In this document: positions 1,929 to 16,968 of the stretch, one piece after another
Layout of the letters: every line of letters begins with the position of its first letter
How positions within the stretch are numbered: the first letter of the stretch is position 1
DNA from: a virus
Length of the DNA stretch: 20,440 nt
Strand: one strand, 5' to 3'
IMG/VR virus record: IMGVR_UViG_3300046466_000562
Location: 1 to 20,440 of that record
Translations under genes and position numbers: made by a program
The notes under the pieces: model-generated
Told to the model about the DNA's origin: nothing
Seen by the model: the letters and a program-made list of their open reading frames with translations, nothing else
Databases searched by the model: none

Positions 1929-4182
1929 CAAATAAGTCCATACCTTGTATCACTGCAGAAGCTGCAAATCCACCTATTCCTGCTCTTGATAACCCTCTTA
2001 ATGCTAATTTAGGTAAACCTAATCTAGCTAACTTTTGAAGAGTTGGACTTAATCCTCTAGTTAATTTTGGTGTTTGATCTGCAAATGCCGGATACAAATA
2101 GTTTAATGGATCTGTTGCTATATCTGTAAATGAGTCTCCTTCTGCAACTTGACTAGCAATATCTCCGGCCATGAAAGGTGCGAGTAGTGCAGGTGATGCT
2201 GCAATTCCAAGTCCTCTTCCTAAAACTCTTAAACCTGTTTTTGCCATACCTGGTCTTGGTTTTTTCTTCTCAATACCAAGAGCTCTAGACTTACTAGCTT
2301 TAATTGTTGATGGCGCAGCAAGTGCTGTTGACCCTGCAAGTGTTGCACCTAATGCAGGTAATTGATAATCTAATATTGCTGGTCTTTCTATGTCGATAGA
2401 AATAGGATCTGTTGCCATATCAACTAACATATTTTTTTGTTGATCTTCATTTGATAAATAAGTTGTTGGATCATCATTACTAAATGCTTTGACCAATCCT
2501 ACGGCAGCTCCGACACCAGCACCGATACCAAATGTTTTAAAACCACCAGATTTTAAAACACCCATTACTGCATTTTTTGCTTTTGCAAGTGGACCACTTG
2601 TTGCTTCTACATTTGCAATTTTTTGTGCAGACCCTATTGGATCTTGATCAATTGCAGCTAAACAATCTGCAGGAACTCTACCACCTGTTGCTTGTGCCAT
2701 AACAAGTTGACAGCTTGTGGGAGCCCCTTTTACAATATTTTTTAATTTCTTTTTAATTGTAGGTAAAAATTTTTCTGGACTTGAAACAAACTCTGAAACG
2801 GTTGCTGTTTTTTTAGGAAATTCAAAAGTGTATCCTGCTCTTTTAGAAGCAGCCTCAATGTCTAAACCCTGATCTTTTAATTGTTGTAATCTTTCTGAAG
2901 AAAAAACTTGTGTAACATCTTCAGCTGGTCTTAACTTTGCTAATTTAATATCATACTGTTTTTCTAAATCTAAAGCTCTTTCATTTATTTTTGCAGCTTC
3001 TGTTTTAAACAAAGAAGGGTTTGCTTCTATTTTAGCTCTAACTTTAGATAATTGACTTTGATAACCTGTAAGAACATTTTGATTTAAATTTCCTTCCATT
3101 ACATCTACAAACTGAGAAAACTCCGCTGCTTTAGATGAAGCACTTCCACTAACCCCAACAATTTCATTAATATTAAAACCATAAGGATTTTTAGCCCTAC
3201 CATCGTAAATAGGTATTTTATTTTCTTGCAATATAGTTTTAGCTTGATCTTTTAAAGACTCAAATGTCCCTGTTCTATTTCCAAGTTTTTCATCAATCAT
3301 CTGCAAGTTTATTCTGTAAAACTGATCTAGATAAGGGTCTCCAAATTTTAATTTAGAAATTTGTTCAAACATTTTTTTAGAGGTTGGATTATTAATTTTT
3401 ATATTATTAATCTTGTTTGCAAATTTTTTGTCTATACCTTTAAAACTTGTATCAAATTTTTTACCTGCATATATCTGAGCTAATCTAATAGTTGCGTTTC
3501 CGGCTTGTGAACCAGTTGTTCCATCAGGTAGTTTTTTTAAAACTTCTGTAACGTTTGGAAGAACACCTTTTTTAAAAGTGTTTTTAAATTTATCGTGCAT
3601 GATAGAAATATTTTTTACAGTGTTTGGTCGTAAGGTATCTGTTTGACTTTTTCTTAAAACGTAAGCTTTTTTTAATTGTTCAATTTCATTTTTAGTAGGA
3701 ATTTTATAGAACAATTGTTTTTTCGTAAAGTCGTATGGTTTTAATATTTTTTTAACTACTTGACCAAACCCGGATGAAAACTTTTTACCGGTTCCTCCTC
3801 TGCCCACACTTCTACCTCGTAGTGTATTAACTGAAACAGTTTCACCAAACTCATTACTTAATAATTTAAGAATATCATCTTCAGTCATCATACCCTTAGT
3901 TTTACTCAAAAGATTTTTATAGTAAGGATAAATTTGATGTTTAAAATTTTGTCTTTGAACGTTAGTCAATTCTTCCCACTTCTTACCTTTGTATCTTTCT
4001 CCTGGACCTTTTGATCCTTTAGCCACAGGTAACTTATCTTCTAATAATAATTTAAAAATTCTAGATTGATCTCTGTTTAGTCCTTTAAAATTTGGGTTGT
4101 CTATTCCACCTCTATAGATAGGAGATTCTGGAGCATCAGTAAGAAAATTTCCATATTGATTTTTAACATATCGTTGAACCAT
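1921..4182 (-). CDS. large (753-aa) putative internal virion or ejection protein
   Basis: I do not recognise a named family. The N-terminal two thirds are lysine-rich and predicted helical, without catalytic motifs. The C-terminal third has glycine/alanine-rich hydrophobic segments at about residues 551-567, 608-625 and 655-675, and a helical hydrophobic end near 725-750, as in membrane-active ejection proteins. A cysteine-containing segment with GGRVPADCLAAIDQDP lies near residue 520. The start ATG follows a perfect GGAGGT 5 nt upstream, and the ATG shares one base with the stop of the 382-aa gene (TAATG), so the two are coupled. Lying between TerL and portal, it is probably a structural or ejection protein; this is inference from position and composition. 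Confidence 0.6.
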   Translation of the reverse strand: MVQRYVKNQYGNFLTDAPESPIYRGGIDNPNFKGLNRDQSRIFKLLLEDKLPVAKGSKGPGERYKGKKWEELTNVQRQNFKHQIYPYYKNLLSKTKGMMTEDDILKLLSNEFGETVSVNTLRGRSVGRGGTGKKFSSGFGQVVKKILKPYDFTKKQLFYKIPTKNEIEQLKKAYVLRKSQTDTLRPNTVKNISIMHDKFKNTFKKGVLPNVTEVLKKLPDGTTGSQAGNATIRLAQIYAGKKFDTSFKGIDKKFANKINNIKINNPTSKKMFEQISKLKFGDPYLDQFYRINLQMIDEKLGNRTGTFESLKDQAKTILQENKIPIYDGRAKNPYGFNINEIVGVSGSASSKAAEFSQFVDVMEGNLNQNVLTGYQSQLSKVRAKIEANPSLFKTEAAKINERALDLEKQYDIKLAKLRPAEDVTQVFSSERLQQLKDQGLDIEAASKRAGYTFEFPKKTATVSEFVSSPEKFLPTIKKKLKNIVKGAPTSCQLVMAQATGGRVPADCLAAIDQDPIGSAQKIANVEATSGPLAKAKNAVMGVLKSGGFKTFGIGAGVGAAVGLVKAFSNDDPTTYLSNEDQQKNMLVDMATDPISIDIERPAILDYQLPALGATLAGSTALAAPSTIKASKSRALGIEKKKPRPGMAKTGLRVLGRGLGIAASPALLAPFMAGDIASQVAEGDSFTDIATDPLNYLYPAFADQTPKLTRGLSPTLQKLARLGLPKLALRGLSRAGIGGFAASAVIQGMDLFDD

Positions 4183-5330
4183 TAGACCTCCAAGATCTTA
4201 GCTAAGCCACCACCTCTGAAAAGACCTTTCTCTCTTAACAGATCATCAATCTTATCTTTCAATGCTGGATCGCTGTCTGGATTTTTAAAAAACTTATATA
4301 GGTTTTTAAAATTTTTATTTGAACCTCTTTCTCCACCTAGGTGTTTGAAGATCGCAGACTTCTGAGCAGCTGTATATAAACCTCTTACAATATTACCTGC
4401 CATATAACCTGGTCTTACTGAACCACCGTCTGCAAAATCAAAGTCATCGACCATCTCAGGATTAAACGCTCTATCGGTAATTGTGTTACCTCTTGCGTCT
4501 TTTATCTTAACTAAATTTTCTGCAAACTTTTGAATGTCGTCTGCGTTATCTAATTGTGCAACTGACGATGCAACTTTTGGTCCAAAATATTTTTGTACTA
4601 ATAACATAGGGTCGCCCATACCACCGCCACCACCTTCAGTCATAAATTTAAAATCATCTGCTTCCATAATAGTAGACAATGATGGTCCACCTGGATTTGT
4701 TGGATCTTCTAAATCTTTTATTCTATTTAAAAACTCTCTAGCATTTGCTCTTGCAACAGGTTGAGCATTTGCTGATACACCGATATTTAAATAAATTTTA
4801 TCTACAATGTCATTTACAATTAAATTATTATTCTTAACATTTTTAATTGCCTCAAGTCCTGCACCTGTAAATGGCGCTGCAATATCATCTGGTCCACCAC
4901 GTGAACCTGGGGGTGGCAAGTCTTCTACTTCAGGAAAAGGAACTTCTTTTCCCCGTTGTCTTAATGACATCAAACCTTCTTGATCAAGGTTTCTAACTCC
5001 GGTTACCATGTCTGTAATGTTTGCTGGCGCTGCAGATGGAAAGTAAACACTATCCATTGTCTGCATATTTTTTAAAAGCTGACTTGCTTGTATGTCATTC
5101 AGTTTACCTGATACAGCGTAACCTACAGAACTTTTTAATTCATCAACTGCTTTCGATCTTGGTAATACACCTAAGGCCTCTGCGTTAATGTCCATGTCCA
5201 ACATCAACTCTGGAGATTTACCCTTTCCTAAAAAATTTACATTTGTTTTAGTCCCCATAACTTCATTTAAGTTTCCACCTAACTTTTTGTATAAAGCTAA
5301 AACTGCATCTAATGTTTGTTTCCTAGCCAT
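4182..5330 (-). CDS. 382-aa virion-arm protein of unknown function
   Basis: No domain is recognised. The protein has a helical N-terminal half, a proline/glycine linker around residues 135-150, a glycine run (TEGGGGGMGDP) near residue 235 and a basic C-terminus with FADGGSVRPGYMAGN, a small glycine-rich motif I associate with structural proteins of marine phages. Its start overlaps the end of TerL by 8 nt and its stop overlaps the next start by one base, so the three genes form one translationally coupled unit. The start has no clear ribosome site, which fits coupling. A role in the virion or in head completion is inferred from location only. Confidence 0.6.
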   Translation of the reverse strand: MARKQTLDAVLALYKKLGGNLNEVMGTKTNVNFLGKGKSPELMLDMDINAEALGVLPRSKAVDELKSSVGYAVSGKLNDIQASQLLKNMQTMDSVYFPSAAPANITDMVTGVRNLDQEGLMSLRQRGKEVPFPEVEDLPPPGSRGGPDDIAAPFTGAGLEAIKNVKNNNLIVNDIVDKIYLNIGVSANAQPVARANAREFLNRIKDLEDPTNPGGPSLSTIMEADDFKFMTEGGGGGMGDPMLLVQKYFGPKVASSVAQLDNADDIQKFAENLVKIKDARGNTITDRAFNPEMVDDFDFADGGSVRPGYMAGNIVRGLYTAAQKSAIFKHLGGERGSNKNFKNLYKFFKNPDSDPALKDKIDDLLREKGLFRGGGLAKILEV

Positions 5331-6789
5331 AGTATTCTAACCTACTTCTATCTGGTAGCGGTTCATCTTGATATGCATCTTTGTTACGAACCATACCACC
5401 TTGTTTAATACGCATGATTGCCTGTGTTGTGGAGTCAACATAGTCATCGTGATCTCCAAACGGAAATGATGCGCACTCTTCCACAACCTCTTGAGCAAAA
5501 TGTTCGTGCATAGGAGCCCAAATCATTCCCATCTCAAAAAGAGGTGCTACTGAGTTTACTCTAGCATGTTTATCATTTCCTCGGCTCGGCGTAAAGTTAA
5601 TTACTGGGATTCCCATATCCCTCAATTCTGCTGTCAGAGGAATACCAGAGGCCTTGGCCTCCACGATCACCATGTCAGGCCGCCAGTATAGATACTCTTC
5701 ATGAGCAACTTTTCTAAGTTCTGGAAACTCATAACGATCTTTGAAAGCATTGAGTAATATTATATTGGCTCTACCATCATCATCTTTGAAGACTCCCCAC
5801 GTTGTAATAGCTGAAAAGTCGGCAGATTCTTTTTTAAGAAAGGCAGTATCGTAAGACTGAAGTATAAAATCACAGCTTGGTGGATTCTTATGTGTCCAAT
5901 CTTGCCACCAGTCTCGTTTTAATATTGCACCTTCTTCAGCTGTTGGCTGTTGCATATACTGAGCATTCCAGTTGTTAACGGGAATAGATGCTTTAGTTTT
6001 CTCTAATTCATCCTTGGTCCAGTATTCCGGCCACACGGGCTTTCCATCAGGAAGCAGGGCAGGTAGTTCTACAACTTCCCATTGATCAGAGTTCTCTTCT
6101 CCCTGAGCCCTGATTAATTGTCCAGTTATGTCCTTGGTACTCCAACGTGTCATAACCACCACGATACGACCTCCTGGTTGTAAACGTTGACGTGGACCTG
6201 ATGTATACCAGTTCCATGCTTTATCAAACGACTTACTATCTTTTTTAATATCTTGTTCTTTGTGTGGATCATCAATGATTAGAAGATCAGCACCACGACC
6301 TGTAATTGCTCCACCAACACCGGCTGCGAAGTATTCTCCACCTTGCTCTGTTTTCCATTTACCAGCGGCTTGGGAGTCCTCCATCAGTCTAGTGTCGAAT
6401 AATTGTTTGTAATTAGATTGATCTACCAGGTTCTTGGTCTTACGGCCGAAGTCGATTGCTAGATCTGCCGTGTGTGTTGCTTGAATGATCTTTAACCGGG
6501 GATCGAGGCCAACCATCCATGCCGGGAGTAAGTATGAGGCAAACTCCGACTTCGTGTGTCTTGGCGGCATGTTAATGATTAGTCTTTTAATTTTCCCGCT
6601 AGCGAGATCATTAAATTTTTTATTAATTTTTTTGTGGTGTGAACCTTCAATAAATTCAGGCCAAACATACTTTACAAAACTCAAAAAGTCTTTTTTGATT
6701 TTAGGTCTGGCTTTATCTAATTCTACACTCTTTTCTAAATCCAGAAGGCGAGCTCTTTCTTCTGAAGTCAATCCTGAAAAATTTTCCAT
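5323..6789 (-). CDS. terL: terminase large subunit
   Basis: This is the ATP-driven packaging motor that docks on the portal and cuts the DNA. The 488 residues match the usual two-domain length. The ATPase shows a Walker A-like INMPPRHTKSE at about 72-82, Walker B DLLIIDDP at 168-175 and the VVVMTRWS coupling segment at 210-217. The nuclease domain shows acidic residues in QSYDTAF (D314), MVIVEAKASG (E377) and HDDYVDS (D449, D452). The pattern is close to the psiM2-ORF9-like TerL group. There is no convincing ribosome site before ATG 6789, only an A/T-rich leader. Its small-subunit partner is not next to it but at 11948-12427 on the other strand. Confidence 0.95.
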   Translation of the reverse strand: MENFSGLTSEERARLLDLEKSVELDKARPKIKKDFLSFVKYVWPEFIEGSHHKKINKKFNDLASGKIKRLIINMPPRHTKSEFASYLLPAWMVGLDPRLKIIQATHTADLAIDFGRKTKNLVDQSNYKQLFDTRLMEDSQAAGKWKTEQGGEYFAAGVGGAITGRGADLLIIDDPHKEQDIKKDSKSFDKAWNWYTSGPRQRLQPGGRIVVVMTRWSTKDITGQLIRAQGEENSDQWEVVELPALLPDGKPVWPEYWTKDELEKTKASIPVNNWNAQYMQQPTAEEGAILKRDWWQDWTHKNPPSCDFILQSYDTAFLKKESADFSAITTWGVFKDDDGRANIILLNAFKDRYEFPELRKVAHEEYLYWRPDMVIVEAKASGIPLTAELRDMGIPVINFTPSRGNDKHARVNSVAPLFEMGMIWAPMHEHFAQEVVEECASFPFGDHDDYVDSTTQAIMRIKQGGMVRNKDAYQDEPLPDRSRLEYYG

Positions 6790-6895
6790 AAAATTTTTTA
6801 TAATATTTTTAATATACCCTATTTTTGAAACCTTGGCTATAAGAGTCTAAATCTTACATATATGTATGACCTTGGGACCCCTTGTATATTATTAA

Positions 6896-6909
6896 GGGTG
6901 GGCCCTCCC
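6896..6909 (+). repeat. G-element copy 1 (GGGTGGGCCCTCCC)
   Basis: This is the first of five perfect copies of a 14-bp imperfect palindrome centred on GGGCCC. It sits in the 278-bp gap upstream of TerL, with a CAAGC unit 8 bp further on (6917-6921). It stands out sharply in AT-rich DNA. The other copies are at 9372, 10097, 10128 and 10533, all in the same orientation. Confidence 0.85.
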
Positions 6910-6971
6910 TAGTTTTCAAGCGAAAAATCAAGATGTAGTGGTACCTCTATCGGTACACACTAAATGTGGTT

Positions 6972-7011
6972 ATGCAAAAATAACATGGCTCGACCTATGC
7001 AGTTTTTGCAT
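6972..7011. other. stem-loop, 9-bp stem
   Basis: ATGCAAAAA (6972-6980) is the exact inverse of TTTTTGCAT (7003-7011), with a 22-nt loop. It lies downstream of the 85-aa gene on the minus strand, next to the stronger hairpin at 7020-7057. Its role is unknown; it could stabilise or end that transcript. Confidence 0.4.
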
Positions 7012-7019
7012 GGGATAGT

Positions 7020-7057
7020 GTAGGATTTGTGGCTCATACCTAAACCACAAACCCTAC
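7020..7057 (-). terminator. 13-bp stem hairpin after the 85-aa gene
   Basis: GTAGGATTTGTGG (7020-7032) pairs with CCACAAACCCTAC (7045-7057) with a single mismatch and a 12-nt loop. The hairpin begins 10 nt beyond the stop of the minus-strand gene 7068-7325. No U-tract follows on the minus strand, so it may be a weak terminator or an RNA-stabilising or processing site rather than a classical terminator. Confidence 0.45.
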
Positions 7058-7067
7058 TGCGAGATTA

Positions 7068-7325
7068 TCAGAAAGGCATTTCCGATTGTTGTTCTTTCAC
7101 TTCATCAGTTAGTATAAGTGGTTTATCAACTGCACTAAAACTAACTTCTTGTAAGTGATAAGAAATTTGTTTCTTGTCCTCGTTCAATGTATCAAGAGCC
7201 AACAACTTTCTTATTGCATTAGTCAAGTTATACATTTCGGACTCGTGAATACGATAGTTCGTAGCCCACGAATATTTTTCTTTTTTAATTATGAAAAACT
7301 TTTTTTCATCTATTGGTTTTGTCAT
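7068..7325 (-). CDS. 85-aa hypothetical phage protein
   Basis: I do not recognise the family. The protein is charged and soluble. A lysine/aromatic-rich N-terminus (about residues 8-25) is followed by a helical centre (residues 30-58), and it ends with EMPF after a Glu/Gln-rich tail, an acidic C-terminus somewhat like that of single-strand binding proteins, though no OB-fold can be claimed. AGGAG lies 9 nt before the ATG, a strong ribosome site. Two hairpins follow the gene (7020-7057, 6972-7011). It is separated from TerL by a 278-bp non-coding gap and probably belongs with the two genes upstream (7404-8673). Confidence 0.7.
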   Translation of the reverse strand: MTKPIDEKKFFIIKKEKYSWATNYRIHESEMYNLTNAIRKLLALDTLNEDKKQISYHLQEVSFSAVDKPLILTDEVKEQQSEMPF

Positions 7326-7403
7326 ATTATATTACTCCTAGTATGGTTAAAATAATGTAGCCATACAAAAGTACAGCTACATTAAAGATTGCTAATTGAA
7401 TAC

Positions 7404-7595
7404 TCACAGCTTGATACTCCAACTATCACTCGCTGTTCTATATCCGTCTTGATCAACATCAAAATAAGTCATTAACATACGACCACTTTTTGATATCCAA
7501 TATCTGCACTTATCTGTCCATAATGCATTTCTTGTTATTGTTTTCTTATCACTTGCTGAAAAGTAAGTGATTTGAAAAGGTTTATTATTTATCAT
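7404..7595 (-). CDS. 63-aa hypothetical protein
   Basis: This is a small protein of unknown function with many aromatic residues (ITYFSASDKK, CRYWISKSGRMLMTYFDV) and alternating charge, suggesting a compact beta-rich fold. It has no transmembrane segment or signal peptide. GAGAA lies upstream of ATG 7595. Its leader contains two strong inverted repeats (7613-7630 and 7628-7655), so translation could depend on RNA structure or on processing of the message from the upstream 334-aa gene. No homologous family is recognised. Confidence 0.6.
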   Translation of the reverse strand: MINNKPFQITYFSASDKKTITRNALWTDKCRYWISKSGRMLMTYFDVDQDGYRTASDSWSIKL

Positions 7596-7612
7596 TTGTT
7601 TTCTCGCTTTCT

Positions 7613-7630
7613 ATAACCTTATGTGGTTAT
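7613..7630. other. 6-bp hairpin overlapping the 28-nt palindrome
   Basis: ATAACC (7613-7618) and GGTTAT (7625-7630) can pair around a 6-nt loop. The last three bases are also the first three of the palindrome 7628-7655, so the ends of the two structures compete. It lies in the leader of the 63-aa gene on the minus strand. Confidence 0.45.
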
Positions 7631-7655
7631 GGGATTAATATATATTAATCCCATA
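7628..7655. other. 28-nt perfect palindrome
   Basis: Positions 7628-7655 are identical to their reverse complement: TATGGGATTAATAT followed by its exact inverse. It is 13 nt beyond the stop of the 334-aa gene on the minus strand. Without a U-tract it is not a typical terminator; it could be a DNA-binding site for a dimeric protein, an RNase III-type processing hairpin or a weak terminator. Confidence 0.6.
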
Positions 7656-7668
7656 GTTATTCAACAAA

Positions 7669-8673
7669 TTAATTCAAGTTATCCGAATTAATTTTCTGCT
7701 GTTGCATATATGCAACACGTTCTGCTATCTTTTGTTCTCTAGTTTTTTCAGTATTTTTCATACCTTTTATTCTTTCAGCTAGATTTTTCGGATTGTAAAT
7801 AACAAGCCCTGTACTATTAGTTCTTATTATTTCGTGGTCAGTAATTTGAACACCAAGTTCATTTGCTAACTCAATCGCCTCATCTAACCATTTGTAGCCC
7901 TTTAATCCAATCTTGATTTCTTTCATTTGTTTCAATACTGAATTAATCCATTTTTCGTGGGCAACAACAAATTGACCTTTACTCGCTTTCCAAGAAACAA
8001 GAAAATTAAATTCTTGTTCGGTGCAAGCAATAGACCTATCACGACAATAATCACGACCAATTAAATCAAGATTATATTTTTCGTTCCACTCTTTACCATA
8101 CTTGGTTTCATTGTTTCTTCCACCACTCAATCCAAGATACTCATTGTTATTATCAACAAATTTTCTTTTGTGTGGATTGTCGTCTTTGTCAGCTTGTTCA
8201 ATTAAGATATCTGCGTTGCAATTTTCTTGTGCGTTTATCTCATCTCTAAACAAAGCAAAACCATAACTACTATCACGATTAGAAGAATAATTATTTTCAG
8301 TATCAATGTCGCCATTTAATCTAAAATCAAAATGTTTTTCTATTGGTACATTTTCTTCTATCTCAACTTGATTGTCATAGCCTCTTTTTTCTTTTGTTCC
8401 AAGATAATGAAAATGAAAACAACTATCTTTTGCAATAGTTGAAACATTTTCAAACTTGTTTTGTAGATAGTATGCTTTCTCTACATCTTCTTCGGTATAG
8501 TGTCGTCTTACTATATCTTTTGCAACCGACCAAGCCTTGTCATTTAAATCAACTTGTTGCCCTTTGAGATCATCATACTTTTTCTTCTCTTGGGTATCTT
8601 CTTGAAATAAAGATTGCTTGATACGATTTGCAACTTTGTTTCGGTACTCTTGGTTTAGTCTTATTCTAGCCAT
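7669..8673 (-). CDS. 334-aa hypothetical protein
   Basis: No family is recognised. It is a soluble, highly charged protein without signal peptide or membrane segment. The N-terminal 80 residues look helical. The middle (about 95-190) is rich in Asn/Asp/Glu and likely flexible. The C-terminal part (about 200-300) has CRDRSIACTEQEFNFLVSWK and ANELGVQITDHEIIRT, and the end is a basic coiled helix rich in Arg/Lys/Gln, suitable for nucleic acid binding, though that is only inferred. AGAGGA precedes ATG 8673. It is transcribed away from 8939-9298, with a 265-bp shared control region. A second hairpin (8712-8740) is in its leader. Confidence 0.7.
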   Translation of the reverse strand: MARIRLNQEYRNKVANRIKQSLFQEDTQEKKKYDDLKGQQVDLNDKAWSVAKDIVRRHYTEEDVEKAYYLQNKFENVSTIAKDSCFHFHYLGTKEKRGYDNQVEIEENVPIEKHFDFRLNGDIDTENNYSSNRDSSYGFALFRDEINAQENCNADILIEQADKDDNPHKRKFVDNNNEYLGLSGGRNNETKYGKEWNEKYNLDLIGRDYCRDRSIACTEQEFNFLVSWKASKGQFVVAHEKWINSVLKQMKEIKIGLKGYKWLDEAIELANELGVQITDHEIIRTNSTGLVIYNPKNLAERIKGMKNTEKTREQKIAERVAYMQQQKINSDNLN

Positions 8674-8711
8674 GTGTCCTCTTTCTTTTTTATTGGTTAA
8701 TGTTTATCGGC

Positions 8712-8740
8712 TCGTGGGGTTTATTCAGATTGCCCCACGA
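8712..8740. other. 8-bp GC-rich hairpin in the leader of the 334-aa gene
   Basis: TCGTGGGG (8712-8719) pairs exactly with CCCCACGA (8733-8740) around a 13-nt loop. In the minus-strand transcript it would lie about 40 nt before the start codon at 8673, so it could act as an attenuator or stabilise the 5' end. It has no U-tract on either strand. Confidence 0.5.
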
Positions 8741-8803
8741 CACCTTTGCAAATTGTAAAATTGCTGAATTTATTTTTATTTGCATAAATATTCTTTTAAA
8801 CTA

Positions 8804-8833
8804 TTGACTTTTAAAGTCAAGGGATTATATAAG
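8804..8833 (+). promoter_or_regulatory. sigma70-like promoter with palindromic -35 region
   Basis: TTGACT (8804-8809), an 18-nt spacer and TATAAG (8828-8833) form a promoter directed at the gene 8939-9298. The -35 box is embedded in an odd-length perfect palindrome, 8804-8820 (TTGACTTT, T, AAAGTCAA), which could be a repressor operator. The mirror TTGACT on the minus strand lacks a good -10. Confidence 0.55.
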
Positions 8834-8875
8834 ATAATATATTAATTTATAAAAACTTTAATATCAATTAAAGCT

Positions 8876-8916
8876 AACTTGCGAGAGGTAGTTCTAGTGT
8901 AGAACACTCGCAAGTT
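8876..8916 (+). ncRNA. structured 5' leader hairpin
   Basis: AACTTGCGAG (8876-8885) pairs exactly with CTCGCAAGTT (8907-8916). Inside, GTTCTA (8891-8896) pairs with TAGAAC (8900-8905) around a GTG loop, leaving a 5-nt bulge on one side and 1 nt on the other. It lies between the promoter at 8804-8833 and the ribosome site of the gene at 8939. It may be a stability hairpin, a processing site or a ligand- or protein-binding leader. It matches no riboswitch class I know. Confidence 0.5.
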
Positions 8917-8938
8917 GCATAACGAGAAAGGACAGAAA

Positions 8939-9298
8939 ATGGCGTTAAAATATTGCCAAAGTCATAAGTGCCATACTTACGACACAAAGGACAGGAAACG
9001 AGGTAGCAAAGGCAACCGAGTTAATCAAACTAGAAGAAGATCAAATCTCTATTATGGAAGTGGAAATTTTTGCTCAATGAATTGTTATAATGATTGGGCA
9101 GAAGAATTCATTGATAGAGCAGTTGACCAAATTAGTGGCAGACTACACGAACCATTAACATTAACAGAAGAAAATGCGTGGCGACGAGTTTGGAACCCAA
9201 ACAGATATGACCGAGATTATAATAGGGTTGAAAGTCAACCAGATTATATTGAAAGGAATATGATTACCAACGAGGTAAGACCTTTACAAAATACATAG
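8939..9298 (+). CDS. 119-aa zinc-finger-like protein
   Basis: I start it at ATG 8939, preceded by AAAGGA, rather than at the earlier ATG 8915, which lies in the hairpin leader. The N-terminus has Cys6, His9, Cys11 and His12; a basic Arg/Lys/Asn stretch (residues 17-36) follows, then FCSMNC with Cys45 and Cys49. The C6-x4-C11 and C45-x3-C49 pairs look like a zinc-binding module with a basic insert, so nucleic acid binding is plausible but not shown. The C-terminal half is charged and rich in Arg/Asn/Tyr. It is a single-gene transcription unit, with its own promoter and a strong terminator at 9318-9370. Host-takeover or regulatory function is inference. Confidence 0.65.
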   Translation: MALKYCQSHKCHTYDTKDRKRGSKGNRVNQTRRRSNLYYGSGNFCSMNCYNDWAEEFIDRAVDQISGRLHEPLTLTEENAWRRVWNPNRYDRDYNRVESQPDYIERNMITNEVRPLQNT

Positions 9299-9317
9299 TT
9301 TCATCTGTCCTTGATGA

Positions 9318-9370
9318 TTTTCCTAGTTTAGAATTATTCTAAACTAGGAAAAATTTTTTTGTTTTTTTTT
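9318..9370 (+). terminator. rho-independent terminator
   Basis: TTTTCCTAGTTTAGAA (9318-9333) pairs exactly with 9337-9352 around a TTA loop, giving a 16-bp stem. It is followed by a long T-tract (9354-9370, interrupted only by one G). This is the clearest terminator in the window; it ends the 8939-9298 transcript. Confidence 0.9.
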
Positions 9371-9371
9371 T

Positions 9372-9396
9372 GGGTGGGCCCTCCCGGGTGGGCCCC
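9372..9396 (+). repeat. G-element copy 2 plus a degenerate tandem copy
   Basis: A perfect GGGTGGGCCCTCCC (9372-9385) is followed directly by GGGTGGGCCCC (9386-9396). It begins just after the T-tract of the preceding terminator. Two CAAGC units follow at 9403 and 9410. Confidence 0.85.
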
Positions 9397-9402
9397 AGCC
9401 CC

Positions 9403-9414
9403 CAAGCTTCAAGC
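9403..9414 (+). repeat. CAAGC pair
   Basis: CAAGCTTCAAGC: two CAAGC units 7 bp apart, lying between G-element copy 2 and the possible promoter at 9439. Confidence 0.75.
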
Positions 9415-9438
9415 CTGTGGATAACTTAAAAATAGTTA

Positions 9439-9467
9439 TTGACTTATTGTAGGATAAAATGTTAAGT
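9439..9467 (+). promoter_or_regulatory. possible promoter for the 131-aa gene
   Basis: TTGACT (9439-9444) is a good -35. The hexamer at 17-nt spacing (TTAAGT, 9462-9467) is poor, so the true -10 is uncertain. The stretch TATTGTAGGAT (9445-9455) recurs exactly at 10182-10192 in the next promoter region, which supports a shared control sequence. Confidence 0.35.
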
Positions 9468-9496
9468 TATGCGAAACTAATAAAGGAGAAATAAAT

Positions 9497-9892
9497 ATGG
9501 GACTAGATCAATACGCAGGACTTCGAGATAGTAAAGGCGAAGTTCACGAAAAGTTTTATTGGAGAAAACACGCTAGACTGCAGGTGCTTATGTCTAAGCA
9601 ATTCAATAAACAAAAAAAAGAACAGGAACATAACACACATGACGACCTGCAACATCTGGGTTTTAATGGTGGTCAAGGTGGTGTTACAATTACTGAAGAT
9701 GTAATCAAGGATCTGGAAGAGGCAATTAAAAATGATTATTATAGTCACTTTGCTTCTGATGGTTTCTTCTGGGGTCAACAATTCCAAGAGGAACAAGTTA
9801 AAGAATACAAAGCCCAAGATGAAGAGTTTTTAAAATGGGCTAAAGAACAAATCAAAGAGGGTAGAAATATCGGATACGATTGTTCTTGGTAA
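9497..9892 (+). CDS. 131-aa conserved phage protein (MGLDQYA-type)
   Basis: AAAGGAG lies 8 nt before ATG 9497. The N-terminus MGLDQYAGLRD followed by EKFYWRKHARLQ is a pattern I remember from small conserved proteins of marine phages; some databases label relatives with enzyme names I consider unsupported. The rest has a His-rich region (HNTHDDLQHLGFNGG, residues 45-59), an acidic helix and an aromatic segment SHFASDGFFWG near residues 83-93. There is no membrane segment. It is a single-gene unit: possible promoter at 9439, hairpin at 9897-9939 right after the stop. The function is unknown. Confidence 0.7.
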   Translation: MGLDQYAGLRDSKGEVHEKFYWRKHARLQVLMSKQFNKQKKEQEHNTHDDLQHLGFNGGQGGVTITEDVIKDLEEAIKNDYYSHFASDGFFWGQQFQEEQVKEYKAQDEEFLKWAKEQIKEGRNIGYDCSW

Positions 9893-9896
9893 AAAG

Positions 9897-9939
9897 TTTT
9901 GGGGGTGGCAAAGTCGGGCAAGTCCCACGCCCCCCAAAA
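9897..9939 (+). terminator. GC-rich hairpin after the 131-aa gene
   Basis: TTTTGGGGG (9897-9905) pairs with CCCCCAAAA (9931-9939). Further pairing of GTGG with CCAC inside is possible with bulges. It starts 4 nt after the stop codon at 9892. No T-tract follows on the plus strand, so termination strength is uncertain. Confidence 0.5.
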
Positions 9940-10084
9940 AATTTGGGTGATTTGGTGAGGGATATAAACCTCTATATCATAGGTGAAGATTTCGGAGGTG
10001 GCCTCTTCTAAGACAGTTAATAAATGCAATCACTGGCCCTACGAACCAACACCCAAGCTAAAAATAAAAATATAAGTTAGGTGT
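9940..10084. other. non-coding interval
   Basis: This is part of a 361-nt gap between genes. It holds a 6-bp hairpin (GATATA 9961-9966 with TATATC 9973-9978), a weak GAGG/CCTC hairpin near 9995-10004 and a lone CAAGC at 10054. A 30-codon GTG-started ORF (9983-10075) lacks a clear ribosome site and was not called. I see no tRNA. Confidence 0.5.
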
Positions 10085-10141
10085 CAAGCTTCAAGCGGGT
10101 GGGCCCTCCCTTATTTTTTTTTTTTGGGGGTGGGCCCTCCC
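10085..10141 (+). repeat. CAAGC pair with G-element copies 3 and 4
   Basis: CAAGC units at 10085 and 10092 are joined directly to GGGTGGGCCCTCCC (10097-10110). A T-tract (interrupted once near its start) follows to 10125, and then a second perfect copy at 10128-10141. The promoter for the 80-aa gene begins 22 bp further on. Confidence 0.85.
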
Positions 10142-10163
10142 TGAATAATTTAAAATTTTTTAG

Positions 10164-10192
10164 TTGACAGTATACCTGGGATATTGTAGGAT
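10164..10192 (+). promoter_or_regulatory. promoter for the 80-aa gene
   Basis: TTGACA (10164-10169), a 17-nt spacer and TAGGAT (10187-10192). The -35 matches the consensus and the -10 matches 4 of 6. In the leader, GCAGGT (10209-10214) can pair with ACCTGC about 18 nt later, shortly before the ribosome site. Confidence 0.55.
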
Positions 10193-10253
10193 GCTGTTAT
10201 CACCCGTTTGCAGGTATCCGGTGTAAAACTCAAACCTGCAGAAAGTAGGACAT

Positions 10254-10496
10254 ATGACAACACAAACTGAAGAGAAAAAATACGAACGTAAAAACAGGTT
10301 CAATGGTGAGTCTGCAATGTTAACAGCTGATGAAGCTAAGAGACATGACAGGATTTTTATCAATGAGCTTGCAGCTACGCTGGAGGATAAGGCGGCCGGC
10401 ATCGATGGCACATCGAAGCTGTGGAAGCAGGTCCAGAAGGATCTGAACTGGTTCAGGCAGCACAACGCCAGCGCTTATATGACGTTACTTGATTAG
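10254..10496 (+). CDS. 80-aa hypothetical protein
   Basis: This is a small soluble helical protein. A basic N-terminus (KKYERKNRF) precedes a helix-rich core with LTADEAKRHDRIFINELAAT and a C-terminal segment LWKQVQKDLNWFRQHN. No named domain is recognised; I have an impression of similar sequences in marine phages. AGGA lies just before ATG 10254. The second half of the gene turns strongly GC-rich, at the left edge of a GC island. It has its own promoter and is followed 9 nt after the stop by the tetraloop hairpin 10506-10523 and then by G-element copy 5. Confidence 0.65.
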   Translation: MTTQTEEKKYERKNRFNGESAMLTADEAKRHDRIFINELAATLEDKAAGIDGTSKLWKQVQKDLNWFRQHNASAYMTLLD

Positions 10497-10505
10497 TCCC
10501 GGAGC

Positions 10506-10523
10506 AGGGCCCGCAAGGGCCCT
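10506..10523 (+). terminator. GCAA-tetraloop hairpin after the 80-aa gene
   Basis: AGGGCCC (10506-10512), GCAA and GGGCCCT (10517-10523) form a 7-bp GC stem capped by a GNRA tetraloop, so it should be very stable as RNA. Only TTA follows, so it may block 3' exonucleases or pause polymerase rather than terminate fully. Confidence 0.5.
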
Positions 10524-10532
10524 TATCCACTG

Positions 10533-10599
10533 GGGTGGGCCCTCCCGTAAGGGGTCAAGCTACAAGCCCTCAAGCGCTCAAGCTTGACAGGTTACAAGC
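10533..10599 (+). repeat. G-element copy 5 and CAAGC run
   Basis: GGGTGGGCCCTCCC (10533-10546) is followed by CAAGC at 10556, 10563, 10571, 10579 and 10595. The steps are 7, 8, 8 and 16 bp. The run enters the promoter of the next gene; its fourth unit overlaps the first base of the -35 flank. Confidence 0.85.
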
Positions 10600-10612
10600 T
10601 CTATGTTATAAG
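10584..10612 (+). promoter_or_regulatory. strong sigma70-like promoter for the GP88-like gene
   Basis: TTGACA (10584-10589), a 17-nt spacer and TATAAG (10607-10612): the best promoter in the window. One CAAGC unit sits inside the spacer (10595-10599). Confidence 0.7.
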
Positions 10613-10630
10613 ATATTATAGGAGAATATT

Positions 10631-11234: not shown

Positions 11235-11441
11235 ATGACTCACATCTGGCGACACCCAAACTATTACGCTGAGCTCAGGAAGGAGAGGCGCAAGCTTACA
11301 AGCTCTCAAGCTCCAAGCGACAAGCATCCCAACCAACGCGCAAGGGTTCAAGCTTCAAGCCAGAGTTCACAAGCTCCAGGATCTGATGACCAGGGTACAA
11401 GCGCACAAGCCCACGGTCCGGGGTACAAGCAACAAGGATAA
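11235..11441 (+). CDS. 68-aa protein with a repeat-encoded tail
   Basis: It starts 1 nt after the stop of the GP88-like gene, without its own strong ribosome site, so reinitiation is likely. The first 20 residues (MTHIWRHPNYYAELRKERRK) look like an ordinary small basic protein. From residue 21 on, the tail is low-complexity Gln/Ser/Ala and is encoded by the CAAGC repeats. The tail shares its DNA with the C-terminal tail of the nuclease on the opposite strand (stop at 11296). The N-terminal part lies outside that overlap, which argues that the ORF is not just a shadow. The function is unknown. Confidence 0.45.
   Translation: MTHIWRHPNYYAELRKERRKLTSSQAPSDKHPNQRARVQASSQSSQAPGSDDQGTSAQAHGPGYKQQG
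11291..11430. repeat. CAAGC (GCTTG) repeat array
   Basis: Eleven CAAGC units begin at 11291, 11299, 11307, 11314, 11321, 11349, 11356, 11370, 11398, 11406 and 11426. Neighbouring units are mostly 7 or 8 bp apart. The same units occur between genes at 9403, 10085 and 10556. Read on the minus strand, the array encodes the tail of the nuclease; read on the plus strand, the tail of the 68-aa protein. Confidence 0.85.
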
Positions 11442-11912: not shown

Positions 11913-11945
11913 TTGATATATATCCCACAAATGTATATATTGCAA
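11913..11945. promoter_or_regulatory. overlapping back-to-back promoters
   Basis: Plus strand: TTGATA (11913-11918), 17 nt, TATATT (11936-11941), which places transcription start at about the TerS ATG at 11948. Minus strand: TTGCAA (11945-11940), 17 nt, TATATA (11922-11917), directed at the 75-aa gene. The two overlap almost completely, so use of one should exclude the other. AT-rich DNA makes chance matches possible. Confidence 0.4.
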
Positions 11946-11947
11946 GT

Positions 11948-12427
11948 ATGAGTCAAGAGATTGTCAAAAAGAAGGCACAACCAGTTACAGATCTAACAGA
12001 GATGCAAAGAAGATTTTGCGAGTATCTTATATTCAATGAAGGTAGAACAACCTTTGCCGAAGCTGCTAGACATGCTGGATACAGCCCAGATAGAGCCAAC
12101 AGAGAAGGCTCAGAGTTAATGAGAAACCCAAAGATTCAAAACTATATAGCTAAGAGATCGGCAGACGTTAATAGAGCATTTGCTGTAACCAAACATAACT
12201 ATGTAAGAAGACAACAAAACCTATCTCAAAAACTTGTAGATGATGGTAAGATCAAAGACGCACTGGGATTTGAAACATTAATTGGTAAAGCTACAGGACA
12301 ATTCAGTGAAACTAATTACAATGTAAATATCAATGCAACAGACATTAAAGAACGTGAGGCAGAAATAAAACGACTCAAAGAATTAAACGAGAAAAGAATC
12401 ACAGATACAAAGCTGCTTAAAGAGTAA
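11948..12427 (+). CDS. terS: terminase small subunit
   Basis: The start is ATG 11948 (MSQEIVKKK); the longer in-frame reading from 11873 runs through the promoter region and the 75-aa gene. The 159-aa protein has the Terminase_2 pattern: LTEMQRRFCEYLIF, then FAEAARHAGYSPDRANREGS (helix-turn-helix) and LMRNPKIQNYIAKR at about residues 16-70. A central helical oligomerisation region follows, and a charged C-terminal helix that would contact TerL. It recognises the packaging site on the DNA and loads TerL. It has no ribosome site and the putative -10 ends 6 nt before the ATG, so a leaderless message is possible. It ends in an 11-nt tail-to-tail overlap with the 95-aa gene. Confidence 0.85.
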   Translation: MSQEIVKKKAQPVTDLTEMQRRFCEYLIFNEGRTTFAEAARHAGYSPDRANREGSELMRNPKIQNYIAKRSADVNRAFAVTKHNYVRRQQNLSQKLVDDGKIKDALGFETLIGKATGQFSETNYNVNINATDIKEREAEIKRLKELNEKRITDTKLLKE

Positions 12428-12704
12428 CCTTCTCCATCTTAATTATACATCCAATTGGAAATACATTACGGTCTGAAAACAACTCATCACCTTCTTCATA
12501 AGATGCAAACGTTCTAATATTCTTTTTATCTTTGTTAAATAGATACGCATGAGTGACCATAATTGATGGTAGGAATCCTAAGAAGTCAATCTCATTAGCA
12601 TGACCGCTATCACCTGTAATATCAGCCCATGTAATTTTATAAAAATAATATCTTTTCTTTTTGATTACAACTGATTTGTATTTAGATTTTTTTGCTCTTC
12701 TCAT
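12417..12704 (-). CDS. 95-aa hypothetical protein
   Basis: It starts with a very basic segment (MRRAKKSKYKS, KKKRYYFYK) followed by a compact region with DFLGFLPSIMVTHAYLF and a C-terminal SDRNVFPIGCIIKME. The pattern suggests a small beta-rich domain with a nucleic-acid-facing basic end; no family name can be given. AAAAGGGG lies upstream of ATG 12704. It is the last gene of the minus-strand early arm, separated from the exonuclease by the GGTACAATT repeat region, and converges on TerS. Confidence 0.65.
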   Translation of the reverse strand: MRRAKKSKYKSVVIKKKRYYFYKITWADITGDSGHANEIDFLGFLPSIMVTHAYLFNKDKKNIRTFASYEEGDELFSDRNVFPIGCIIKMEKVTL

Positions 12705-12979
12705 TGTATACCCCTTTTAACATATGAAAAAATAAAAAACAAAATTCATGTACGCGACCCCCTATTTCGTTGCAATTCCTAGCTTTTTTAAAAATTGTAC
12801 CAATTGTACCTAATTGTACCAAGGGTGTTTGGTACAAATTTGAGCGAATAACCGTTGGTATGTAACACTTTTTTAAATTGTACCAATTGTACCAGGGTTT
12901 TAAAAAAAATAAAAAAAATTTTTTTATTTTATAGAGAAAAAACGTATACAATTGTAAAAATATGCAATTATCCTTGATT
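12705..12979. other. non-coding AT-rich interval with repeat array
   Basis: This 275-nt gap has no convincing gene. A 101-codon reading frame across it is made of low-complexity and repeat sequence. It contains most of the TTGTACC array, an A/T block at about 12900-12942 with long T and A runs, and a near-duplicate pair of 28- and 26-nt blocks (12783-12810, 12868-12893). Confidence 0.6.
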
Positions 12980-13044
12980 TTACTCATCTTTTTGACCTAA
13001 AATTGTACCTGAGAGCTCTTTTTCTTTTGGTACAATTGGTACAA
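12795..13044. repeat. TTGTACC / GGTACAA iteron-like array
   Basis: TTGTACC occurs at 12795, 12804, 12814, 12878, 12887 and 13003; the inverse GGTACAA at 12831, 13029 and 13038. Adjacent units are 9 or 10 bp apart. The array extends into the last 22 codons of the exonuclease gene (stop at 12980), where it encodes KIVPIVPK and SGTILG. Such direct repeats near replication genes resemble origin iterons or multi-site operators. Confidence 0.8.
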
Positions 13045-13717
13045 TTTTATAATATTCATCAACTCTACGTAGAAATTCATGCATATACCCCTGAAATTCC
13101 TCATCATGCACCTCAAACTTTTGAAAAAAGCAATCCTTGCTACACATTAGAATAATTCCAGACTGTATTTTTGTGTCGTATACTTGATTGTGGGCCATAG
13201 CATAAGCTGCTAGCTGGGTGAAGTAGTCATCAATCCATTCTCTTTGTTTAGGCTTGTTTGTTTGTTTGAAGTCTATTATACTTTCGCGTCCGTTATAAAT
13301 TCCTACAACATCGGTAGCACCTGCATACAACCCAGGATAGTACAGTGTAACTTCACTACCCCATATTTCTTCCAGGTCCCCGAGTCCCGATTCAATAACA
13401 ACTTTAGCCATTCGTTCTGCTTCACGGCCAATTGACGTTAGGTCCATGTGGTTCTCACCAAGAATATACCCTTCCAAATAAGTGTGCATTGCTGTGCCTC
13501 TCATGGCGCTCACATCACGAATCCGGTCTGCTGCCTGGGTACCTACCCGCTTCTTCCACTCTTCCAACTTCTGTTTCTTTTCAGCACTCTGAGTCGCTGA
13601 CAATATCGTCGTAACACTCGGCAATTTTTCGTTCGTTCCTACATCGTAGTGTCGTTTACCATTAATCAGTGCACGTGTTGATGTCGGGTATTCAAATTTT
13701 TTATTCCACTTTAGCAT
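12980..13717 (-). CDS. PD-(D/E)XK exonuclease (MGME1/RecB-like)
   Basis: The 245-aa protein has the ordered motifs of the RecB/MGME1 exonuclease group: LPSVTTIL (residues 32-39), RGTAMHTYLEG with His78, SEVTLYYP with Glu122, YAGATDVVGI with Asp136, ESIIDFKQTN with Asp149 and Lys151, and YFTQLAAYA with Gln168. These are the metal-binding and catalytic positions. In phages such enzymes replace the T7 gene 6 exonuclease: they degrade host DNA, remove primers and assist recombination. AAAGG precedes ATG 13717. The start overlaps the lipoprotein gene by 17 nt. The 3' end is built from the GGTACAATT repeat, so the last 20 residues are likely a dispensable tail. Confidence 0.9.
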   Translation of the reverse strand: MLKWNKKFEYPTSTRALINGKRHYDVGTNEKLPSVTTILSATQSAEKKQKLEEWKKRVGTQAADRIRDVSAMRGTAMHTYLEGYILGENHMDLTSIGREAERMAKVVIESGLGDLEEIWGSEVTLYYPGLYAGATDVVGIYNGRESIIDFKQTNKPKQREWIDDYFTQLAAYAMAHNQVYDTKIQSGIILMCSKDCFFQKFEVHDEEFQGYMHEFLRRVDEYYKIVPIVPKEKELSGTILGQKDE

Positions 13718-13906: not shown

Positions 13907-14040
13907 CGTTTCCTGTAGCCTGTTCCCTTGTCCCTGTCACCCCAACGTTTCTGCCAGGACCAGACATTTAGTTTACTGCTTAGACTTTCCAAGATGTTTA
14001 GAAACCAATCTATAATCCCCCAAGTCCACGATATTATCAT
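13897..14040 (-). CDS. 47-aa Trp-rich basic small protein
   Basis: The N-terminus MIISWTWGIIDWFLNILESL is amphipathic or membrane-associated. The C-terminus is strongly basic (QKRWGDRDKGTGYRKRWK). The ORF starts inside the 3' end of the LAGLIDADG gene in another frame (68-nt overlap) and ends inside the next micro-gene, filling what would otherwise be a gap. There is no strong ribosome site. The tryptophan/arginine pattern looks selected rather than random. The function is unknown. Confidence 0.5.
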   Translation of the reverse strand: MIISWTWGIIDWFLNILESLSSKLNVWSWQKRWGDRDKGTGYRKRWK

Positions 14041-14425
14041 ATTTTTCATCTGTGTAATGTTCTATAATCTGTTGTATTTTAGGTAGTTTAGTATGCGCAT
14101 ATGGCCATAGAAGTCTACAAACATAGAACGCATCTCTGAATGTACACCTCCACTTCCATTGCATCAAGTATTTTGTACCGTCTTTTCGTAAACCTTTTCG
14201 CGGTTTTCTGTTGACAGTTCCAACATTTAATACTTCATGCATCCATCGTATAACAGATTCATCTGTCATAGTGACTTCCATACTAATTCGTTGAGACAAA
14301 GACTCTCTATAACCTTTGCCTTTATGTTTCTTTTTCTTTTCTATTCTTTTAGCGAAATAGATACTACCTTCGCCATCAAAGAGTCCTGCTATGTAGGCTA
14401 TATCCTCACTGCTCAGTGTAGTCAC
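13973..14425 (-). CDS. LAGLIDADG homing endonuclease
   Basis: The N-terminal motif AYIAGLFDGEGSIYF (about residues 11-25) is the LAGLIDADG helix with its catalytic acidic residue. With only one motif in 150 aa, it should act as a homodimer that cuts a long, near-palindromic DNA site. The rest has the alternating basic and aromatic pattern of the DNA-binding saddle (MQWKWRCTFRDAFYVCRLL). The start is GTG 14425 with AGAGG 4 nt upstream, within the end of the 78-aa gene. It seems free-standing, with no intron or intein borders visible. It is a selfish mobile gene that may also exclude rival phages. Confidence 0.85.
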   Translation of the reverse strand: MTTLSSEDIAYIAGLFDGEGSIYFAKRIEKKKKHKGKGYRESLSQRISMEVTMTDESVIRWMHEVLNVGTVNRKPRKGLRKDGTKYLMQWKWRCTFRDAFYVCRLLWPYAHTKLPKIQQIIEHYTDEKYDNIVDLGDYRLVSKHLGKSKQ

Positions 14426-14642: not shown

Positions 14643-14793
14643 CTTCGTCTACCTCCTCTTCTATTTCACCTTGGTTGTTGCAAACAAAGCAATCAGCCCA
14701 TTGTTCTTCTCTGGCCTGTTCGAAAGGGACTCGGACAAATCCGTTTCCATTACAAACAGAGCAGATTACTTTACGCGTTTTTAAGTTTGCCAT
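14614..14793 (-). CDS. 59-aa double CxxC zinc-binding protein
   Basis: Two Cys pairs, ICSVCNGNGFV (Cys11, Cys14) and DCFVCNNQGEI (Cys35, Cys38), follow the CxxCxGxG style of the DnaJ zinc centre, so one zinc ion is probably bound by the four cysteines. The C-terminus is acidic (EIEEEVDEDVD). It overlaps the RHH-like gene upstream by 23 nt and the coiled-coil gene downstream by 29 nt. Phage proteins of this type often bind partner proteins or nucleic acid, but no target is shown here. Confidence 0.65.
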   Translation of the reverse strand: MANLKTRKVICSVCNGNGFVRVPFEQAREEQWADCFVCNNQGEIEEEVDEDVDRQRKSN

Positions 14794-14944
14794 TTAACTT
14801 CTTCTCTTTCTCATTTACTAATAATGTTATTGTTTGAGATCTACTTATTGTCATCTCAGGAATCATAACTTTTCTTATCTTATCTATTTTATTATATGTA
14901 TCTTTTGGTAATGATACATTTTTGTATTTGCTTATATCAGTCAT
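14771..14944 (-). CDS. 57-aa ribbon-helix-helix-like protein
   Basis: A short strand (YKNVSLPKDTYNKI) is followed by two helices (DKIRKVMIPE; SRSQTITLLVNEKEKKL), the layout of Arc/CopG/MetJ-type DNA-binding dimers. AAGGAG precedes ATG 14944. It is the first gene after the promoter at 14985-15013, the usual place for an autoregulator. Candidate sites to test are that promoter and the palindrome at 8804-8820. The assignment rests on pattern only. Confidence 0.6.
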   Translation of the reverse strand: MTDISKYKNVSLPKDTYNKIDKIRKVMIPEMTISRSQTITLLVNEKEKKLNGKLKNA

Positions 14945-16346: not shown

Positions 16347-16507
16347 AATACTTTACCTTTGTTTGGTCCTTCTTTTATTCTGTACTTATGTGTGCCTGTA
16401 CCATTAATTTCTACTTCTTTTTTAAGATCCTTTACATATCTCATTTGTTTAGCAGTACGTTGCATTTCTGTTATGTATTCTAATATCTGTCTACTAATGC
16501 GTCCCAT
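16343..16507 (-). CDS. 54-aa basic small protein
   Basis: A helical N-terminal half (RISRQILEYITEMQRTAKQM) is joined to a basic, turn-rich end (GTGTHKYRIKEGPNKGK). ATG 16507 lies within the end of the 126-aa gene (14-nt overlap) and the stop overlaps the next ATG (ATGA). It reads like a small DNA- or RNA-binding protein, without a known family. Confidence 0.6.
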   Translation of the reverse strand: MGRISRQILEYITEMQRTAKQMRYVKDLKKEVEINGTGTHKYRIKEGPNKGKVL

Positions 16508-16874
16508 TTCCATTGGCTCTTACCTTATCTTTTAATTCTTCAATATCTTTTAATGCTTTTTCTAATTGTTCTCTTAAAAATTCTATATTTACTTTGTTAG
16601 TCATATTCATTTCTTGAGTTTCTTCCATCTTCTCGACACTTTTGTAAAGATCCTCAAGTAAAAAATGTTGTTCCTGGTCTACGGGTACTTGCTCACTTTT
16701 CTTTAACAAATCATTCTCAAACAACTCACGTGATGTCTCTAACGATACTAATCTTGAAGTCAGCTCCGTGTATGCGAACACACCCATTGCTACGAGAATT
16801 ATAAGACTAGCTACGGTTTTCATCGGCATCTGTACAGCTGCTGATTCGGATATGTTTAGTGGTTTGTTATTCAT
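16494..16874 (-). CDS. 126-aa membrane-anchored coiled-coil protein
   Basis: Residues 1-18 are polar. One membrane helix follows (about 19-36, KTVASLIILVAMGVFAY), then an 80-residue coiled coil rich in Glu/Lys/Leu. The N-in topology with a periplasmic coiled coil is like that of inner-membrane spanins (Rz), although such proteins in marine phages are often unassigned. Its ATG overlaps the stop of the 24-aa peptide (ATGA). A spanin would need an outer-membrane partner; the only lipoprotein seen is 2.7 kb away (13701-13823). Confidence 0.65.
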   Translation of the reverse strand: MNNKPLNISESAAVQMPMKTVASLIILVAMGVFAYTELTSRLVSLETSRELFENDLLKKSEQVPVDQEQHFLLEDLYKSVEKMEETQEMNMTNKVNIEFLREQLEKALKDIEELKDKVRANGNGTH

Positions 16875-16945
16875 TGCGCTGGTCCCCCAAGAAATGCTAA
16901 TAGCACCAACATTATAATTAATATTGCTGTAAACCTATAGTCCAT
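16871..16945 (-). CDS. 24-aa membrane peptide
   Basis: MDYRFTAILIIMLVLLAFLG is a single membrane helix after four polar residues. GGAG lies 9 nt before ATG 16945; an in-frame ATG at 16960 would add five residues and is also possible. The stop overlaps the next ATG in ATGA. It is too small for known holins. Confidence 0.5.
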   Translation of the reverse strand: MDYRFTAILIIMLVLLAFLGGPAQ

Positions 16946-16968
16946 CTTGGCAATCTCCATTGTAGAAC

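Follow-up and report, generated by a model that had tools for sequence, protein, structure and literature searches.

A GC-rich intergenic element with one orientation and clade-specific versions is a putative recognition site at transcription-unit boundaries of HTVC023P-type pelagiphages

What is the role of a GC-rich word of 14 bases that stands five times, without a single change and always on the same strand, between the genes of a phage? The question is raised by a virus record of 20,440 bp (IMG/VR IMGVR_UViG_3300046466_000562; the whole stretch is called the window below), in which genes for TerL, portal, DNA polymerase, exonuclease and TerS can be recognised, and which represents part of the genome of an HTVC023P-type pelagiphage. 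The word is GGGTGGGCCCTCCC, referred to here as the element or the 14-mer. In the relatives it keeps its kinds of location, a single orientation, an extreme conservation, a restriction to intergenic DNA and an association with promoters, and other clades carry versions of their own. With a probability of roughly 0.55, we consider the 14-mer to be the recognition site for a putative phage DNA-binding protein, which would demarcate or control the promoters of one gene module as well as the late control region at the large terminase subunit gene (terL).

The initial annotation had reported five perfect copies, and all of them were found, at 6896..6909, 9372..9385, 10097..10110, 10128..10141 and 10533..10546, all on the + strand and none within a plausible gene of the window. 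It had also held that chance cannot produce them; actually, 100 dinucleotide shuffles of the window gave no copy, so that the chance expectation is 0. Copy 1 lies in the leader of terL (5323..6789, - strand), between two conserved boxes that are described below, and a CAAGC unit is at 6917. Copy 2 abuts the T-tract of an intrinsic terminator (hairpin and T-tract at 9318..9371, +; hairpin folding z -4.5), and is followed by the degenerate tandem copy that had been noticed before, GGGTGGGCCCCAGC (9386..9399, +; 3 mismatches), by a CAAGC pair at spacing 7 (9403..9414, +) and by a 131-aa gene of unassigned function (9497..9892, +). Copy 3 abuts a preceding CAAGC pair, again at spacing 7 (10085..10096, +), copy 4 stands behind a T-tract and 22 bp ahead of a TTGACA, and behind both comes an 80-aa gene, also without an assigned function (10254..10496, +). 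Copy 5 is followed by an array of four CAAGC units at spacing 7-8 (10556..10583, +), which abuts the -35 box of a gene with a GP88 domain (PF17338; 10631..11233, +).

The promoter-like pairs behind these copies are a weak TTGACT-17-TTAAGT (9439..9467, +), TTGACA-17-TAGGAT (10164..10192, +), and TTGACA-17-TATAAG or, with the other -10 box, -19-TAAGAT (10584..10614, +), the last of which is conserved upstream of the GP88 gene in relatives. The adjacency of CAAGC at four sites and the gaps of 24, 22 and 0 bp to the -35 boxes at 9439, 10164 and 10584, both from the initial annotation, are right, provided that the gaps are measured from where the composite ends (the element or the last CAAGC unit). 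Overall, the module copies of the window lie ~84-143 bp ahead of the next + strand start codon, with the promoter in between.

To see how far this arrangement extends, IMG/VR was scanned with the 14-mer, and GGGTGGGCCC[T/G]CCC was the pattern counted in relatives; the counts below hold among the matches listed and are lower bounds. At least 98 low-GC contigs were kept, 96 of the 98 sharing proteins with the phage family of the window and the other two being shorter than 500 bp, while 23 high-GC contigs among the listed matches are probably chance matches. At least 280 copies were counted on at least 91 non-redundant contigs, and the opposite strand had 0; for 28 records the search covered the whole sequence, and within each of them every copy is on the same strand. 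Three complete genomes have copies solely in the terL leader and in a region of ~4 kb between terL and the small terminase subunit gene (terS), a module whose genes mostly point the other way from those in the rest of the genome. Homology-supported coding DNA makes up 63% of the sequence, yet it holds only 4 of 314 copies.

The element marks one deep clade of TerL, with 45 of 46 rows in an independent TerL survey and the TerL tree, and the element type needs 6 changes on this tree versus 44 when the labels are shuffled. Within the clade of the window it stands at syntenic sites; it is not universal in the family, since neither the isolate HTVC027P nor the searched part of HTVC023P has it, and none was found in further clades besides those carrying the 14-mer or one of the two other versions below. 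It therefore cannot be an essential part of the basic machinery of the family. Outside phages, a scan of 84,980 prokaryote genomes for the element with two CAAGC units, which misses lone copies, returned 2 records, both labelled Pelagibacteraceae; one of them is a phage contig of 59.5 kb from a single-cell genome, and no use of the element by the host was seen.

The constraint on the word itself is strong. Among 338 near-exact copies in the listed matches, 304 are exact, all the deviations fall on positions 1, 11 or 14, and positions 2-10, 12 and 13 are invariant, on contigs whose TerL identity to the window goes down to about 65%. Position 11 is T in 144 copies, G in 166 and A in a few. That is, the initial annotation was right about the 14-mer in the window, but not in treating it as the sole form: the commonest form in the wider group is GGGTGGGCCCGCCC, with G at position 11, and the window form with T is one variant. 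Position 4 is always T, where an A together with T at position 11 would give a perfect palindrome. Judged from these letters, the asymmetry of the element appears to be selected and base pairing not.

Two other clades carry longer versions of their own, V1 (GGGTGGGnCCCGCCCACAtGCtCTtctCt) and V2 (GGGaGGGTGGGCCCnnAGnnCACrAGC), with 405 copies on 98 contigs and 373 copies on 105 contigs, respectively, and 0 mixed contigs. Like the 14-mer, both are multi-copy, confined to a single strand as confirmed in whole records, and placed in the same kinds of places. Such clade-specific versions would be expected if the site and its reader protein change together. In the same part of the genome, a further lineage (L189) has another GC-rich intergenic repeat at about 3826-4803, CACGGGCTCCCC(C)TCCC preceded by GGGTGGGGGT.

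The surroundings of the copies point to transcription control. Of the 232 copies that are not at terL, 106 (46%) have a sigma-70-like pair no more than 130 bp downstream, versus 3.2% of random positions, and a terminator-type T-tract lies directly upstream of 22% of the copies versus a background of 2.3%. Where present, the T-tract mostly precedes the element, copy 3 of the window being an exception. Directly behind CAAGC stand 59 of the 280 copies listed. The best-conserved context is the GP88 gene, where the order of element, CAAGC units and TTGACA is repeated in many contigs; at some copies the composite is incomplete, i.e., the terminator hairpin and the promoter-like pair are not both found at all of them. 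The GP88 gene is present in most relatives and is a homologue of the gp33 region of HTVC027P, and an unusual early-to-middle expression pattern has been described for gp33 (PMC12753301). In the same phage no phage RNA polymerase has been described, and the early genes are all functionally unassigned (PMC12753301).

Based on these observations, the most economical account is that the element is a recognition site for a protein acting at transcription-unit boundaries, the 14-mer being the present-clade form of a dispersed asymmetric site in the transcription control of HTVC023P-type phages. A phage protein would bind the element at each boundary of the inverted module, where the order would be terminator, element, CAAGC array, host sigma-70 promoter and gene, and at terL the same protein would bind it in the late-operon leader. 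The bound protein may act jointly with a second protein, seated on the adjacent CAAGC array, in setting the activity of the promoter; alternatively, it may prevent stray transcription from running on into the unit that follows. Protein binding, the encoding of the binder by the phage and the direction of the effect are what we infer from the pattern. Among the roles suggested by the initial annotation, a site for a regulator or an insulator is the best class of explanation, because the copies are syntenic within the clade and almost never in genes, rather than missing from syntenic sites or scattered at random. A purely mobile repeat and a packaging or origin signal are not favoured, since the element tracks the TerL tree, keeps one orientation and lies mostly at the promoters of the module.

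On the other hand, several facts weigh against a recognition site. The distance from the element to the -35 box is variable, mostly 22-53 bp with modes near 22, 29 and 37, so direct contact with the polymerase is not implied. The element points against the gene at terL and with the genes in the module. HTVC027P and HTVC023P, in the sequence searched, carry the same kind of terL boxes without the element. Recombination could likewise homogenise the copies within a genome. A comparison of presence and absence found no DNA-binding-like gene family confined to the element-bearing genomes. The frequencies are also biased by sampling, since the rows with the element were mostly collected through the 14-mer and the V1 and V2 contigs through their own patterns; the clustering on the TerL tree is not explained by this bias alone. 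As cognate readers, open reading frames (ORFs) C10 and C12 are the best correlated; they are not DNA-binding-like and phylogeny confounds the correlation, so they were rejected. A site with fixed activator spacing is ruled out by the varying distances to the -35 box.

The leader of terL has a second conserved feature. Two direct boxes, TGGgaCCCcTTt and TGGTACCTCTAT, are found family-wide upstream of terL (window 6872-6951), in the window as GGGACCCCT (box 1, 6874..6882, +) and GGTACCTCT (box 2, 6940..6948, +), 66 bp apart. The distance is 61-67 bp in 96 of 96 pairs found, the pair occurs once in each of four complete genomes, and in some contigs the second box is not recognisable. The pair is kept with or without the 14-mer, and elements, where present at terL, take preferred places between or behind the boxes. 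The pair may be a control site of the late promoter or a packaging site.

The CAAGC units form a further layer. Their spacing is 7 or 8 bp, with 9-11 almost absent, and it differs by clade: 7 on the element-free HTVC027P side, mostly 8 in the 023Pt_psg01 type, and both in the clade of the window. In complete genomes the units are found almost only in the terL-terS module and on the same strand. Arrays also lie at 11291-11409 in the window and at 16506-17730 in HTVC027P, some of them running into a small ORF behind the GP88 gene. They resemble the heptads of plasmid pSM19035, tandem unspaced 7-bp repeats overlapping promoters and bound by omega/ParB proteins of the ribbon-helix-helix (RHH) type (PMC9499535), but the sequence is another one, the 8-bp spacing departs from strict heptads, and the 14-mer is outside any heptad array.

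A candidate reader of CAAGC is a family-wide 57-aa protein (14771..14944, -; MTDIsKYKNVSL...) that reads like an RHH regulator. Its predicted structure (pLDDT, i.e., predicted local confidence, 80.6) has helices at 14-27 and 35-50, and in a fold search it came closest to the centromere-binding ParB 3no7, a weak match (E 4.3, probability 0.13); there was no Pfam match above the cut-off and no meaningful sequence match in the PDB. The strand presumed to contact DNA reads KNVSL in the E group, i.e., with the element, KSLSV in psg01 and KSLAV in HTVC027P. The assignment of this protein as an RHH regulator reading CAAGC is only a lead. We would put forward only tentatively, as a possible but still doubtful extension, that HTVC023P-type pelagiphages use a two-part code, in which a GC-rich anchor rewritten in each clade and a CAAGC array read by the small RHH-like protein would jointly act as the switch for the inverted early module and for the late operon, through the host RNA polymerase only.

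Among the other explanations, the one that survives best, though we think it unlikely, is that the unit of terminator, element, CAAGC and promoter is a homology patch for the exchange of neighbouring genes, kept mainly by recombination and with little binding function. The copies, in one orientation, are direct repeats, and the genes between them are mosaic: against three relatives (G008, G012 and G002) the identity of 9910-10500 drops locally to 30-60% and, in two of the three pairs, rises again near the element at 10533; for a 119-aa gene the identity to G008 is 66%, compared with 99% for TerL and TerS. Recombination alone is insufficient, though, as the word is constant also between lineages, with substitutions at three positions only; in addition, it follows the TerL tree, is not seen in other modules or phage groups, and has its terL copy at preferred places relative to the two boxes. 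As an observation in its own right, the window shows a mosaic replacement at 8939-10500, where the 119-aa gene and 9910-10500 differ strongly between close relatives and the flanks are 95-100% identical. Because genes have been replaced between elements in this way, the composite unit may additionally serve as homology for shuffling. A parallel is given by the PeSLs (promoter early stem-loops) of T4-type phages, which are reported to be composed of a terminator and an early promoter between genes in plastic regions and to be tied to gene shuffling (as cited in PMC4503421); they are defined by promoter and stem-loop, while the unit here adds a fixed GC-rich word and CAAGC arrays and is inherited with the phage lineage.

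Improbable, and yet kept alive by the least explained fact of all, the shared orientation even at terL, is a polar block, by which the element with its protein would halt leftward RNA polymerase or replication forks and so keep readthrough out of the rightward module and of the late operon. It accounts for one genome orientation at terL and in the module despite opposite adjacent genes, and nearly all genes outside the module are read leftward. The stoperators of phage L5, which are asymmetric and orientation-dependent, are a precedent (PMC9283540). Nevertheless, the convergent end of the module (12427-12700), the place that would profit most from a block, has no copy, and a leftward intrinsic terminator is absent (no U-tract). 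The stoperators and operators of L5 and other Cluster A mycobacteriophages are similar in being short (13 bp in L5), asymmetric, multi-copy, intergenic, at promoters and of fixed orientation; they differ in being genome-wide, following the direction of transcription and being read by the known repressor of a temperate phage (PMC9283540). In contrast, the element is confined to one module and terL, keeps one genome orientation where transcription reverses, and belongs to phages described as lytic. The correlation of orientation with transcription that characterises the L5 sites thus fails here: all on one strand, the terL-leader copies oppose terL and the module copies follow their genes.

We consider it very unlikely that the element is a pac or cos site or a binding site of the small terminase, for although one class of copies sits in the terL leader within the box pair (61-67 bp in 96 of 96; single in four complete genomes), this pair is kept in element-free relatives, the copies are several rather than unique, most of them lie kilobases away at promoters, and contig ends are scattered without a pile-up at the site. 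Least probable of all is a short transcript hairpin acting as a terminator or stability signal, since GGGTG and CKCCC can fold and tandem copies fold strongly (10085-10145), but for the single copy tested neither strand folds more stably than its shuffles (z +0.8, +0.1), the pairing of the constant U at position 4 with the variable position 11 is broken in nearly half of the copies, and copies with a promoter behind them are not part of the mRNA of the following gene. Some further candidates were discarded: a Rho-independent terminator by the same folding result and the T-tract mostly preceding the element, a mobile intergenic repeat of the REP or MITE kind by one strand, one module and inheritance along the TerL tree, and a Chi-like recombination hot spot, for which a genome-wide spread is expected, by confinement to one module. 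No known RNA family or tRNA was found.

Dispersed oriented short repeats as a kind are known from mycobacteriophages (stoperators, SAS and Cluster O repeats). The start-associated sequences (SAS, and ESAS) of Cluster K are 13-bp asymmetric words, GGGATAGGAGCCC, with 11-19 copies that mostly share an orientation and precede some of the genes, and without an assigned function (PMC3203893). They lie directly at translation starts, and pairing with 16S rRNA is possible (PMC3203893), whereas our element lies upstream of promoters and away from start codons. The 17-bp repeats of Cluster O (Corndog) are likewise short, invariant, numerous and often intergenic, with recombination between copies; they are palindromic and about a third are in genes (PMC4351075), while the element is asymmetric and almost never in genes. 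The initial annotation knew of no description, and none was found among the papers searched on pelagiphage intergenic repeats or promoters, including an HTVC023P-type paper and a 37-F6 paper; in these papers this element family, its clade versions, its confinement to one module and its coupling to CAAGC were not found described.

HTVC023P-type pelagiphages, among which the viral single-amplified genome (vSAG) 37-F6 is classed, rank among the most abundant viruses known, and a conserved, oriented and clade-specific site is a concrete handle on the regulator of their transcription. The three versions of the site amount to a natural specificity experiment, and the box pair and the CAAGC arrays add cis elements that can be tested, in genomes with which genetic work is difficult.

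By TerL, the closest annotated phages of the window are 023Pt_psg01 (66%) and Pelagibacter phage HTVC027P (63%), both of which are included in the HTVC023P type (PMC9599517, PMC12753301). A relative of ~95% DNA identity (L233, QCMS01000007.1, 59,509 bp) sits in the SAR11 single-cell genome AG-422-I02. Since the TerL neighbours are HTVC023P-type and this close relative lies in a SAR11 cell, the host of the window phage is most likely SAR11 (Pelagibacteraceae). The final gene of the inverted module is terS (11945..12427, +). Near the junction where terS and the exonuclease operon converge, repeats based on AATTGTACCAATTGTACC occur in direct and inverted orientation (window 12786-13052), and a gene for a LAGLIDADG-type homing endonuclease (PF00961) lies at 13973-14425 (-).

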